A DNA stretch of 64,000 bases from Verrucomicrobiota bacterium. GTDB lineage: Bacteria > Verrucomicrobiota > Verrucomicrobiia > Verrucomicrobiales > DEV007. Under the pieces are notes generated by a model. That model was not told the origin of the DNA. It worked only from the letters and a program-made list of their open reading frames with translations, and searched no databases. The translations under genes were made by a program, and so were the position numbers. Each line of letters opens with the position of its first letter. The stretch's first letter is position 1. Positions 6,571-52,566 of the stretch are shown one piece after another. The DNA is taken from positions 62,001 to 126,000 of the forward strand of contig JAHDID010000011.1 in assembly GCA_020630975.1 (NCBI GenBank). Reading direction: 5' to 3'.

Positions 6571-7158
6571 CTAAGCCTTCACCCATTGCTCACTCTCTTC
6601 GTGGCGGGGCAATATCTCGACAATATCAGCTATCACGATCCCATCTGGATCGAGTAACTGATTGCAACGTCCGTATAGCAACTCGCCTTCGTCTTGATTC
6701 AAGGCCTTGGCGATAATCGCATCGGCTGGGACTGAGAAAAATGCAGTCGGGCTACCCGTATGAGCCACCTGATACTCACCCAAGATACCGCCTAGAGGAG
6801 CCTTCCCCTCAATGATGAGCTCTCTCACCTCCGCTGGGAGATTCTCCAGATGGATACCAATCGCACCGAACTCCACTGGCACCTCATAACGCTGGGTATA
6901 AAGCGTAACCATCCGGATCAGATAATTTTCCGTGCGCTCGTGCTGCAATACCTCAAGAGAAAGCGCAGAACGGTGAAACGCCGCCAATGTCGGCGTCATA
7001 TCATTCTCATGAACCAACAGAGAGCGATAGGGATAAGGCATATCGCCACCGTCGAGGAAGGAAAAATCCGGCAGTGGACACTCGGCCTTCTCGTAGAAAT
7101 ACTGAATCGGCATCAACTGATAGAGAGCATCGGCTAATTCTGCAGAAGCGGCGTCCAT
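6571..7158 (-). CDS. Chorismate pyruvate-lyase/DUF98-like protein (tentative)
   Basis: ~195 aa with APLGGILGEYQV, resembling the PLGxIL motif of chorismate lyase-like proteins; co-directional with the downstream end of a radical SAM gene. Confidence 0.4.
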   Translation of the reverse strand: MDAASAELADALYQLMPIQYFYEKAECPLPDFSFLDGGDMPYPYRSLLVHENDMTPTLAAFHRSALSLEVLQHERTENYLIRMVTLYTQRYEVPVEFGAIGIHLENLPAEVRELIIEGKAPLGGILGEYQVAHTGSPTAFFSVPADAIIAKALNQDEGELLYGRCNQLLDPDGIVIADIVEILPRHEESEQWVKA

Positions 7159-7169
7159 GTCGTAGATTC

Positions 7170-7203
7170 AATAGGGTACAATTTTTATTCAATAGGGTAC
7201 AAT
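7170..7203 (-). repeat. Twin 13-mer ATTGTACCCTATT, 21-bp spacing (locus 1)
   Basis: Plus strand AATAGGGTACAAT at 7170-7182 and 7191-7203. Confidence 0.95.
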
Positions 7204-7210
7204 CAACGCC

Positions 7211-8584
7211 CTAGGTGTAACGTTTCCAATCACTATGCTCAGGGAGGAAAAACTCATGCAGCTGTTTGTCGATCTGCAGTAAGCCCTCGCGATTGATCAG
7301 CACTTGATCACCGTCAACACTCAGGTAACCACGACTGCGCAGCAATTCCATAGGCTCGGAAAATACCTGAGTCACATCTGCACCATACTTGTCCTGAAAG
7401 TAGCTGATATTGGTGTGCCCCAGCTTCAGCTGCAGGATAAATTCGCGCAACAATCGCTCATCATGAGAAGTCGGATAGGCTCGGAATATCGGTAACTCAT
7501 TCGCCTCCATCGCCTGCATATATGGGCCCACGTCTGCTTGGTTCTGGTAATGCACACCTCCGAAATGGCCAAAACTAGCCACTCCGACTGATAGCAAGTC
7601 CGCCCCAGCCCATAAACTATCGCGATAGACGAACTTCGTCGTTTCTGGATTCTTCACCACCGTGTAGGCACTGGTCACGCTGTATCCAGCCGCCTCGAAC
7701 CGATCGAAGGCCCAGTCCACCCAATCACGCTTGGTCGACCAAGTCGCAACAGGAGCGGTCACCTTCCCCGCTTCCTGCATCTCCTTATAGATTGTGGTGT
7801 TATAGGGGATCTCCATCTGGTAAATGGTCACACAATCAGGCTCCTGCTCGATCGCTATATCGACACATTTTTTCCAATTATCCTCGGTCTCATCCATCAT
7901 CCCAGCGATGAGATCGATATTCACCTGATCGAAATCTAGAGACTTAGCAAAATCCATCGCTCGATAAGCTTCCTTAGAGCGATGAGCACGACCATTGACC
8001 TCCAGTAGGTGGTCATCAAACGCCTCAACCCCAATACTCAGACGAGTGACACCGATATCGCGGATAGCGGTCAATTTCTTCTCATTGAGAGTGCCCGGCT
8101 CGCCCTCAAAAGCCACTTCCTCGACCTCATCCCAAGGGAAGAGATCCTTCATACGATCCGTCAGATCCTGTAACTGGTGAGTGGAAAGATAGCTCGGAGT
8201 GCCGCCTCCAAAATAGACAAACTGAGGCTTCCGCCCCTGAAGATAAGGCTTCTCGGAATAAACCTTCAGCTCCTCGATAGCAGACTCCAGATAGGAATTG
8301 ATCTCACTGCTAGACTTATCGGTATACACCCTAAAATAGCAAAAGTGACACCTCTTACGGCAAAATGGGATGTGCAAATATAACCCAAGGTTGGTGTCTA
8401 CAGGCGCATCCGAAAGCAAGATTGGAGCGATGTTATCCACCATATCAGGCTTCCAATAGGAAAACGGTGGGTAGTTGGAAACAAAATAGTTCCCAGCCTC
8501 TGTTTCGTCGCCATGTTGCTCCAAAGGATGCTCCTTCAGCTCTTTCACGCGCTGGGCTAGTGTTTCAGTATTTTGCTTCGGCAT
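7211..8584 (-). CDS. HemN/HemW-like radical SAM protein (coproporphyrinogen III oxidase family)
   Basis: LYLHIPFCRKRCHFCYF (CxxxCxxC), FVYFGGGTPSYLS, VAFEGEPGTL, RLSIGVEAFDD, NIDLIAGMMDET. Confidence 0.85.
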   Translation of the reverse strand: MPKQNTETLAQRVKELKEHPLEQHGDETEAGNYFVSNYPPFSYWKPDMVDNIAPILLSDAPVDTNLGLYLHIPFCRKRCHFCYFRVYTDKSSSEINSYLESAIEELKVYSEKPYLQGRKPQFVYFGGGTPSYLSTHQLQDLTDRMKDLFPWDEVEEVAFEGEPGTLNEKKLTAIRDIGVTRLSIGVEAFDDHLLEVNGRAHRSKEAYRAMDFAKSLDFDQVNIDLIAGMMDETEDNWKKCVDIAIEQEPDCVTIYQMEIPYNTTIYKEMQEAGKVTAPVATWSTKRDWVDWAFDRFEAAGYSVTSAYTVVKNPETTKFVYRDSLWAGADLLSVGVASFGHFGGVHYQNQADVGPYMQAMEANELPIFRAYPTSHDERLLREFILQLKLGHTNISYFQDKYGADVTQVFSEPMELLRSRGYLSVDGDQVLINREGLLQIDKQLHEFFLPEHSDWKRYT

Positions 8585-30551: not shown

Positions 30552-31056
30552 CAGGCAGAATCGGAGTAAAATATCAATGTATCCTAATATAGACTCAGGT
30601 GATTATTCCGGATTTTTCAGGCTAAATCCAGCCAAAGTGCATCCGGTGCCTAAATAGGCACCCCGAAGTATAGAACTCATAGCCGATGGTCGAGCCTATT
30701 GGAAATTGGAGAGGCGAGGTGGTGGATTCTGATGAGTTTCCCAGTGCTGTGATAACGTTTTAGCTTGCCGGCTAATGCACGTCACCCCCAGCGCCAAAGG
30801 CAAGAGATTTGAGAGGACCTCAAGCATCGCCTAACTGAGGACAGTTTTGAGTTTAGTCAAAGGAATCAAGCGGTGGTGAGAATCAAGAATTCGTATGGCT
30901 ATTTAAGCGCTCTGAAACTTATGCTGGAGAGGTGAAGGTGTTACATCCAGAATCTATTCTGCGAAGGGTTGCTGGTGACAAGACACTGATTTATAGCGCT
31001 CCAGGGCACCGGCAATACGATTGCCGATCTCACCGTGGCAGGAATCAAGAAATAAC

Positions 31057-31121
31057 GGCATCCCTGCGGTTGGCTGAACCCATGGTTTCGCAGCCGAGGT
31101 AGCCGAACAGCAGGGATGCCG
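31057..31121. repeat. Imperfect ~20-bp inverted repeat (REP/BIME-like hairpin)
   Basis: CGGCATCCCTGCGGTTGGCT ... AGCCGAACAGCAGGGATGCCG; 12-bp perfect outer stem. Confidence 0.75.
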
Positions 31122-31152
31122 TAGTTCCTTGAGTTAGGACACAAAGCGAATC

Positions 31153-31186
31153 ATTGTACCCTATTCACTGTTTTGCGAACCCTATT
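31153..31186 (+). repeat. Twin 13-mer, second copy degenerate (locus 2)
   Basis: ATTGTACCCTATT 31153-31165; TGCGAACCCTATT 31174-31186. Confidence 0.85.
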
Positions 31187-44661: not shown

Positions 44662-44834
44662 TTGGCTCAGCCTGCCGGGCGACGAGACGTGCGCCCCTCC
44701 TTGGAATTGCCACTGACCAAACATATTAGCCAGAGACTCGCGCTCAAGGAGGGGCTGCATTCAGCTGCCCGGTAGGCTGCGCACGATGCTTCGGCCGAGG
44801 TTGCCGGGCAGCTGAATGCAGCCCCTCCTTGATT
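44662..44834. repeat. Intergenic palindromic repeat, same family (three sub-units)
   Basis: TTGGCTCAGCCTGCCGGGCGACGAGACGTGCGCCCCTCCTTGG ... CTCAAGGAGGGGCTGCATTCAGCTGCCCGGTAGGCTG ... CTTCGGCCGAGGTTGCCGGGCAGCTGAATGCAGCCCCTCCTTGATT. Confidence 0.9.
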
Positions 44835-44931: not shown

Positions 44932-44965
44932 ATTGTACCCTATTGAGTCAAAATTGTACCCTATT
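44932..44965 (+). repeat. Twin 13-mer ATTGTACCCTATT, 21-bp spacing (locus 3)
   Basis: ATTGTACCCTATT at 44932-44944 and 44953-44965. Confidence 0.95.
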
Positions 44966-45008: not shown

Positions 45009-46391
45009 ATGCACTCAGGCGCTCCTAAATTTCGACCCATCTTGAGGTTCTGGCCTCGAACCCTGATCCCTTTACTCGCCTTACTCCTAGCCACATCGAT
45101 TTGCTTGGGCGTTTCAAGGCAGGCACCGCTACACATAGCGATGGAGTACGGCGCAGACACCTTGCTGGGCTGGGGGCGATTTGACTTCCAAGGAGACAGC
45201 TGGCCTCCTGCAACAAACCAACCAGTTCCGATCACCATCGTCAAATGCACCAAATATGAAAAGGATAATGGTGAGGCCTATCACTACGAAATATTACACA
45301 TTCTCCGTGGTGAAAGTTTTCAGCCTGGGGAAACCATTAAGGTCTTCGATAGATTCGGACTGGGTTTCGGGCGATTGGGACTACTCATAGGAGACCCAAC
45401 ACAAGGACTCACTACGACTTCTAGAAACTTTCGCTCTATACCACTGGGAAGCACACCAATATCGGATGTCATTTCTGTAGTTCAGTCGACCTTAGCCATC
45501 CAACAGAAACACCCATCCACTCAGATTCCAGAGCGAAACCAAGAACTAAACAACCGACTCGAACACGCTACTGAAGAGATACTACTCGCCTGGTTAGTCA
45601 TCTTCCCCGAATGGCTAGAGCAGGAACTCAACTGGAACCAGATTGGCATCCATAAAGCGGCCACAAACTTCGAGCACATCATCAGAGCAGAGTTGAAGAC
45701 TGAGGATAACCGAGACTACACACCAGCTCTCACTGCCCTTCACCTATTCGCCAAAACGGGTGCACCAGAACTCCCTCTGGACCTTTTACTCAACGGCCTA
45801 GACCGCAAACGCAGCCTCAGAAATATATCTGCCGAGCTATTATCCCGAAGAACAGGCGACGACAGGAAAGAGGTGATCACTAAAATGAGAAGTATTTTAG
45901 GTTCAAGTCGACCCGATGAGCGATGCTGGCGGATCTGTCAGGCTTTGGCAAAGATGAATGCAACCGATGCTGCGCCAGAAATAAAAACCTACTATAAGCG
46001 CACTCAATACAGCAACCAAAAGCACTACGCATTAGCTGCCTTGAGCCTCTTAGATCTCCCCTCTTCAGAAGAGCTACTGCTACAGAAAATGCAACGCGTC
46101 CGCACTTTCGGAGCAGGCTACTTCAATGAACTAGCCAGAATCTGCAACAATGGCCAGCTCAAACCTGCCGATATCGTCCCCTATTTAGTTGAAGCCTGCA
46201 ATGGCTGCGCCCTCGTCAATCAGAGTTCCTCTGACACCAGAAATTGGCTAATGGAGATAACCGGAATCGACTCCGACCAGACAGCTGATTACAAAAACTG
46301 GTGGGTAACACGTAAGCCCAACACACCTTGGCCAATCAAGGCAGTCCGCCAGCATGGCAAACTCAGCAACCTCGAATTTATAATCGAATAA
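45009..46391 (+). CDS. Secreted/anchored HEAT-repeat-like hypothetical protein
   Basis: N-terminal TM (LIPLLALLLATSICLGV); repeated helical pairs (LFAKTGAPELPLDLLLNGLDRKRSLRNISAELLSRRTGDDRKEVITKM). Confidence 0.55.
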   Translation: MHSGAPKFRPILRFWPRTLIPLLALLLATSICLGVSRQAPLHIAMEYGADTLLGWGRFDFQGDSWPPATNQPVPITIVKCTKYEKDNGEAYHYEILHILRGESFQPGETIKVFDRFGLGFGRLGLLIGDPTQGLTTTSRNFRSIPLGSTPISDVISVVQSTLAIQQKHPSTQIPERNQELNNRLEHATEEILLAWLVIFPEWLEQELNWNQIGIHKAATNFEHIIRAELKTEDNRDYTPALTALHLFAKTGAPELPLDLLLNGLDRKRSLRNISAELLSRRTGDDRKEVITKMRSILGSSRPDERCWRICQALAKMNATDAAPEIKTYYKRTQYSNQKHYALAALSLLDLPSSEELLLQKMQRVRTFGAGYFNELARICNNGQLKPADIVPYLVEACNGCALVNQSSSDTRNWLMEITGIDSDQTADYKNWWVTRKPNTPWPIKAVRQHGKLSNLEFIIE

Positions 46392-52477: not shown

Positions 52478-52566
52478 GGCGGTCGGGGTGGGATTCGAAC
52501 CCACGGAACCCTTTCGAGTTCACTTCTTTAGCAAAGAAGCGCATTCGACCACTCTGCCACCCAACC
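52478..52566 (-). tRNA. tRNA-Ser(GCU), CCA encoded
   Basis: Reverse complement GGTTGGG...anticodon arm CTTCT-TTGCTAA-AGAAG...long variable arm...GGTTCGAATCC...CCCGACCGCCA; GGTTGGG/CCCGACC acceptor stem pairs. Confidence 0.96.

Follow-up and report, generated by a model that had tools for sequence, protein, structure and literature searches.

The 64,000-nucleotide window analysed here (positions 62001-126000 of contig 81 in G000, a 7.14-Mb draft genome of 158 contigs from the order Verrucomicrobiales) contains three arrays of a 13-mer repeated at 21-bp spacing. The first array, ATTGTACCCTATT-GAATAAAA-ATTGTACCCTATT at 7170..7203 on the minus strand, is a perfect pair with an outer arm, GAATCT, that extends the element to about 7164. 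It lies between the TAG of an upstream gene for a HemW-like radical SAM protein (7211..8584, minus strand; Pfam PF04055 and PF06969, HemN_C) and the ATG of a downstream 195-aa coding sequence (6571..7158, minus strand), which has no Pfam match, so that Pfam lends no support to the "chorismate-lyase-like" label it had been given. The second array, at 31153..31186 on the plus strand, combines a perfect unit (31153-31165) with a degenerate one (31174-31186; TGCGAACCCTATT, four mismatches). The third, ATTGTACCCTATT-GAGTCAAA-ATTGTACCCTATT at 44932..44965 on the plus strand, is again perfect, has an outer arm AAATTT reaching to 44971, and precedes a coding sequence without a Pfam match (45009..46391, plus strand). 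The coordinates of the two perfect pairs and of the half-degenerate pair in the original prediction, as well as the 21-bp spacing, were exact, and dinucleotide shuffles of the window gave an expectation of 0.00 for the ATTGTACCCTATT pair. Long imperfect inverted repeats adjoin two of the arrays (44680-44830 and 31040-31130; AAGGAGGGGCTGCATTCAGCTGCCCGG... and GGCATCCCTGC...). The sole Rfam match in the window is a tRNA gene at 52480-52566 on the minus strand.

Scanning the whole genome, we found 422 adjacent-unit ATTGTACCCTATT pairs at 21 bp with up to three mismatches, against none for the reversed-pattern control, and 696 single 13-mers with at most one mismatch (reversed control, 1). The three loci of the original prediction are all present, but they were a gross undercount. 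A sample of 1.25 Mb, about 17.5-18% of G000, was analysed base by base, with genes called by a simple hexamer-based method. This sample held 64 clusters under a two-mismatch rule (44 pairs, 11 triples, one quadruple and eight singles), and 67 of 69 neighbouring units in it were spaced exactly 21 bp apart. When pairs were counted by total mismatch, 59 multi-unit arrays were obtained in the sample, which extrapolates to about 340 genome-wide. The 21-bp-spaced pairs numbered 36, 15, 11, 7 and 3 for zero to four total mismatches, with almost none beyond and a background of about zero; decayed copies thus do not trail off in a long tail. A 12-mer related to the imperfect inverted repeats beside two of the window arrays, GCCCCTCCTTGA, and the string ACGTCTCGTCGCCCGGCAGGCTGAGCC occur between genes at about 20 places in the same sample and constitute a separate repeat family.

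Alignment of 66 two-unit elements delimited a conserved stretch of about 44 bp, from ATTGTACC to GAATTT, between flanks that are random except that the outermost adjoining bases lean slightly towards G/C. The stretch is constrained in sequence: ACCCTATT is near-invariant, as are the A at position 14 and the T at position 16 after unit 1 (the near-invariant positions can also be given as A0, ACCCT, T11 and T16), and positions 13, 15 and 17 are free to vary, with T avoided at 15 and 17. The right arms of the two units are position-specific. When arms were compared across loci, the identity was 0.71 among the first units and 0.77 among the second units, whereas units 1 and 2 showed 0.53 both within one array and across different loci. 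Because the two units are no more alike within an array than across loci, the pair is not a product of local duplication, and its position-specific difference suggests the copying of a ready-made two-unit cassette. Judging from these alignments, whole pairs may have been copied, or they may have been selected independently toward the same composite. The four-unit array at C15:196111 of G000 reads unit1-unit2-unit1-unit2. Two arrays at C31:168429-169384 of G000 lie 900 bp apart in an apparent gene-cassette region, and the first of them and the array at C33:120085 have 186 bp of downstream sequence in common.

The exact G000 pair was found in none of the 59 sampled family members, but the same design recurs among the relatives in other dialects. 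A genome sample was scanned for any 8-mer recurring at a fixed distance. TGTACCCTGTT at 22 bp was the clear top signal in the sample of G074, the closest congener, whose HemW-like protein is 82% identical; ACCCTGTT at 22 bp was detected in G012, a genome from outside the genus, and ACCCTCTT emerged at 22 bp in G050 as a weaker signal. The dialects with a 22-bp period include TGTACCCTGTT in G074, GACCTAACCCTGTTAGGTC in G067 and CGATCnnACCCTGTT in G012. Of the 34 genomes of the genus, 31 contained the pattern ACCCTNTT-N13-15-ACCCTNTT, with no more than 1-5 copies in some of them, and the six genomes from the genera g10 and g12 all contained it as well; the reversed controls gave 0-1 matches in both cases. 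The counts were 610 in G074, 411 in G000, 242 in G012, 208 in G069, 207 in G067 and 163 in G010. Many other genomes had tens of copies, and G048, G055, G066, G060 and G062 had 0-1. The system is therefore dispensable, unless the dialect of the congeners with 0-1 copies falls outside the ACCCTNTT pattern. One dialect prevails in each genome, and the form common across dialects is GAYYnnACCCTNTTnRRTC. A literature search that covered few subscription journals found no published report of these sequences. G012 also carries a different 22-bp tandem array, GTACCCTATCCAGGGTGGTGCA, at C13:7553-7691 and C40:9379, with near-identical, VNTR-like repeats.

Each unit is a dyad-symmetric site of 8-3-8 architecture with the general form GAYYnnAC-CCT-GTnnRRTC, and two to five such units of 21 or 22 bp are stacked in an array. 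Inverted units are present in 9 of 29 G074 arrays. When the centre is placed at the middle base of CCT, the centre-to-centre distance in G074 is exactly 22 bp for 32 of 33 close direct neighbours and for 10 of the 11 inverted ones; with the centre anywhere else, the latter fall into two classes. The common distance of direct and inverted neighbours implies a symmetric, dimer-like reader. Several dialects have mirror-symmetric arms, such as GACCTA...TAGGTC in G067 and GACTGTAC-CCT-GTACAGTC in a subset of G074. The arms do not covary within a genome, where the observed covariation equals the expected one, and the absence of covariation rules out a hairpin in RNA or single-stranded DNA and points to a double-strand protein site. 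From the geometry of the sites, we infer that a dimeric protein reads each unit, with neighbouring dimers on the same face of DNA two turns apart. The dyad units support the earlier suggestion of tandem dimer sites on one DNA face, as does the centre spacing, which the inversion of a unit leaves unchanged.

The clusters of the 1.25-Mb sample were intergenic in 60 of 64 cases, although intergenic DNA accounts for 19% of the sequence. The 58 classified arrays were distributed among tandem (37), convergent (12) and divergent (9) gaps roughly in proportion. Their orientation relative to flanking co-oriented genes (24 vs 13) was not significantly biased, and we found no link between array orientation and replication polarity judged by GC skew (rho 0.11, p 0.38). 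Compared with 110 control proteins, no Pfam family was enriched among the array neighbours, which are ordinary genes. The array positions also turn over. In the congener sequences listed, the junction just downstream of the HemW-like gene, occupied by an array in the window, was free of arrays, and no array was shared between G000 and G074 in five orthologous gene blocks. An array with a non-consensus spacer, ACCCTGTTGAATGCCTCG[G/C]TCAACCCTGTT, occurs once each in six genomes (G046:C91:130119, G061:C13:107662, G059:C3:348682, G040:C36:50880, G056:C176:1774 and G064:C21:2654), where two copies are identical and four have 2-3 changes; another array is identical in G052 and G064. Some arrays apparently are old and have persisted at the same place across species, with the spacer serving as the sole indicator of orthology. 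The array with the non-consensus spacer, one of whose six species has only three arrays, is possibly an ancestral or master site.

Of all the observations, the even spacing says most about function. Among the 59 multi-unit arrays of the sample, only one of 51 gaps was shorter than 5 kb, as compared with 11.5±2.7 expected from random placement into the intergenic gaps of the same contigs (0 of 5000 simulations were as low); three null models agreed. The sole gap below 5 kb is a duplicated cassette stretch. The coefficient of variation (CV) of the gaps was 0.60, against 0.91 for random placement, and the minimum array-to-array distance was about 6 kb, with a median gap of about 19 kb and a mean of about 20 kb. 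Short gaps in G000 were depleted equally for direct and inverted neighbours, ruling out deletion between direct repeats as the cause of the spacing. In G012, which uses a different dialect, none of 51 gaps between exact pairs was shorter than 3 kb, whereas 6.4 were expected (p=0.001). The 60 kb just upstream of the window (C81:1-60000 of G000) contain zero arrays, against the mean gap of about 20 kb.

We give nearly an even chance to the explanation that a dimeric DNA-binding protein stacks on the phase-locked dyads and that the evenly spaced arrays act as chromosomal anchors or marks. A dedicated putative dimeric protein would co-evolve with its site, and its dimers would occupy adjacent dyads next to one another on a single face of the DNA. 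The evenly spaced arrays would serve this protein as anchor or marker points in nucleoid organisation, in a manner comparable to matS for MatP, SBS for SlmA or parS for ParB, and redundant arrays lying close to each other would be lost. The arrays resemble matS, SBS, parS and the NBS sites of Noc as intergenic, scattered dyad sites of dimeric chromosome-organising proteins, and differ from them in having hundreds of genome-wide copies that are nearly always stacked and come in lineage dialects. The likeness to dispersed dyad sites with functional spacing, such as matS, extends to site anatomy and spacing only. More tentatively, the arrays may belong to a bacterial chromosome-marking system, as yet undescribed, in which one dedicated dimeric protein, co-evolving with the dialects, would use hundreds of phase-locked tandem dyads actively held at intervals of about 20 kb. 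Three observations count against the anchor or mark explanation: some congeners have 0-1 copies, the five blocks compared between G000 and G074 have no array in common, and no binder was found. The HTH_3 (XRE) protein considered as a binder was near arrays in G061 and G064, but only seven such genes exist in G000, and it does not track the arrays in general. In the two congeners, at G064:C81:1264-1905 and G061:C30:24185-24957, the XRE-type HTH gene and the array are separated by about 0.4-0.6 kb.

If confirmed, the arrays would represent a binding-site system that spans the genome, differs in dialect between species and keeps a regular spacing, in a phylum that has received little study. The congeners with zero, tens or hundreds of copies, the periods of 21 and 22 bp and the co-varying arms provide a built-in natural experiment. 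It could be tested directly how bacterial chromosomes gain and retain protein sites at regular intervals, and whether architecture, uptake drive or insertion exclusion lies behind the regularity.

The main rival, which we consider rather unlikely, is that the arrays are a miniature mobile cassette of about 44 bp with two dyad units, moved by an unspecified enzyme, and that each copy hinders the insertion or survival of further ones nearby, in the manner of transposon target immunity. The position-specific arms common to many loci would then reflect the copying of whole pairs, and the order of units at C15:196111, the orthologous junction without an array in congeners and the exclusion zone around each array are in line with mobility. 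Such a cassette also accounts for the copying and for copy numbers ranging from 0 to more than 600 within the genus better than the anchor model does. However, we found no target-site duplication at any boundary of the 66 two-unit elements at all offsets, and no empty paralogous site, all matches being self-matches. No transposase is enriched beside the arrays, and viral contigs gave no match to three dialect queries. Dyads that can be read either way are unlike known transposon ends, and decayed copies are almost missing. REP/REPIN-RAYT systems likewise comprise short palindromic intergenic repeats that are species-specific and often paired. REP elements carry a GTAG or CGTC tag at one palindrome end (PMC3733652), whereas the arrays have no such tag, are stacked directly at 21/22 bp and lack within-genome arm covariation. 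RAYT as a mobiliser was rejected: four RAYT-like matches (two full-length genes and two fragments) in the 18% sample of G000 had no array within 700 bp. Mobility and the anchor explanation could also be combined, with the sites spreading as cassettes and then being retained for their spacing.

It is improbable that the arrays are self-recognition signals for transformation like DUS or USS, kept exact, even and dialected by uptake-biased import. Uptake sequences are the closest published parallels to a dialect combined with spacing: DUS of the Neisseriaceae occur in dialects (PMC3630211), USS are evenly spaced according to Karlin et al. as cited in PMC1939737 and also according to PMC7811141, and both share with the arrays the hundreds of near-perfect copies. 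Their density is about one per kb (PMC7811141), whereas here one array occurs per about 20 kb, making the arrays about 20 times sparser. The arrays are also nearly absent from coding DNA (60 of 64 clusters intergenic) and consist of phase-locked tandem dyads instead of asymmetric single 9-12-mers that also lie within genes.

Tandem dyads at about 22-24 bp suit cooperative repressor dimers, and the arrays could be places at which a repressor acts as a silencer or roadblock, dispersed in the manner of mycobacteriophage stoperators or resembling the tandem operators of CI, but we regard this explanation as very doubtful. Like stoperators, the arrays are short, intergenic and group-specific in sequence (PMC9283540, PMC6550527), and the lambda-type operators share with them tandem dyads about two turns apart. 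The repressor that binds stoperators is, however, monomeric and its sites are asymmetric (PMC9283540), and the arrays are spread over a bacterial chromosome independently of the direction of transcription, with 12 of 58 in convergent gaps and no significant orientation bias. The neighbouring genes are functionally random and not common to different species, nor was there any promoter set conserved between related species as expected for the regulon of a single transcription factor. The regulatory sense of the "operators" in the original prediction is not supported, as the arrays occupy convergent, divergent and tandem gaps in both orientations, next to unrelated genes that differ between sister species.

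The ends of IS21-, Tn7- and Mu-type transposons carry repeated transposase sites of about 22 bp, but the IS21-type end offered as an alternative is largely refuted and such ends have only a slight chance of being correct: no target-site duplication, no paired inverted ends around transposase genes and no recurrent transposase among the neighbours were found, the flanks were unshared except for one duplicated cassette stretch, and the symmetric dyads are orientation-indifferent and belong to no element. The Akkermansiaceae matches ACCCTNTTnAnTnnAACnnTTAACCCTGTT, an apparent ancestral form, turned out to be loops of integron attC sites sharing only the 22-bp ACCCTNTT match, and the attC arms (GTTRRRY...RYYYAAC) are missing from the window arrays. 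Such attC-like integron cassette sites are present in 32 contigs from Persicirhabdus, Haloferula, Akkermansiaceae and other Verrucomicrobiales MAGs, in which the conserved loop ATGACCCTCTTTACTACAACACTTAACCCTGTT is a recurring stretch containing a start codon.
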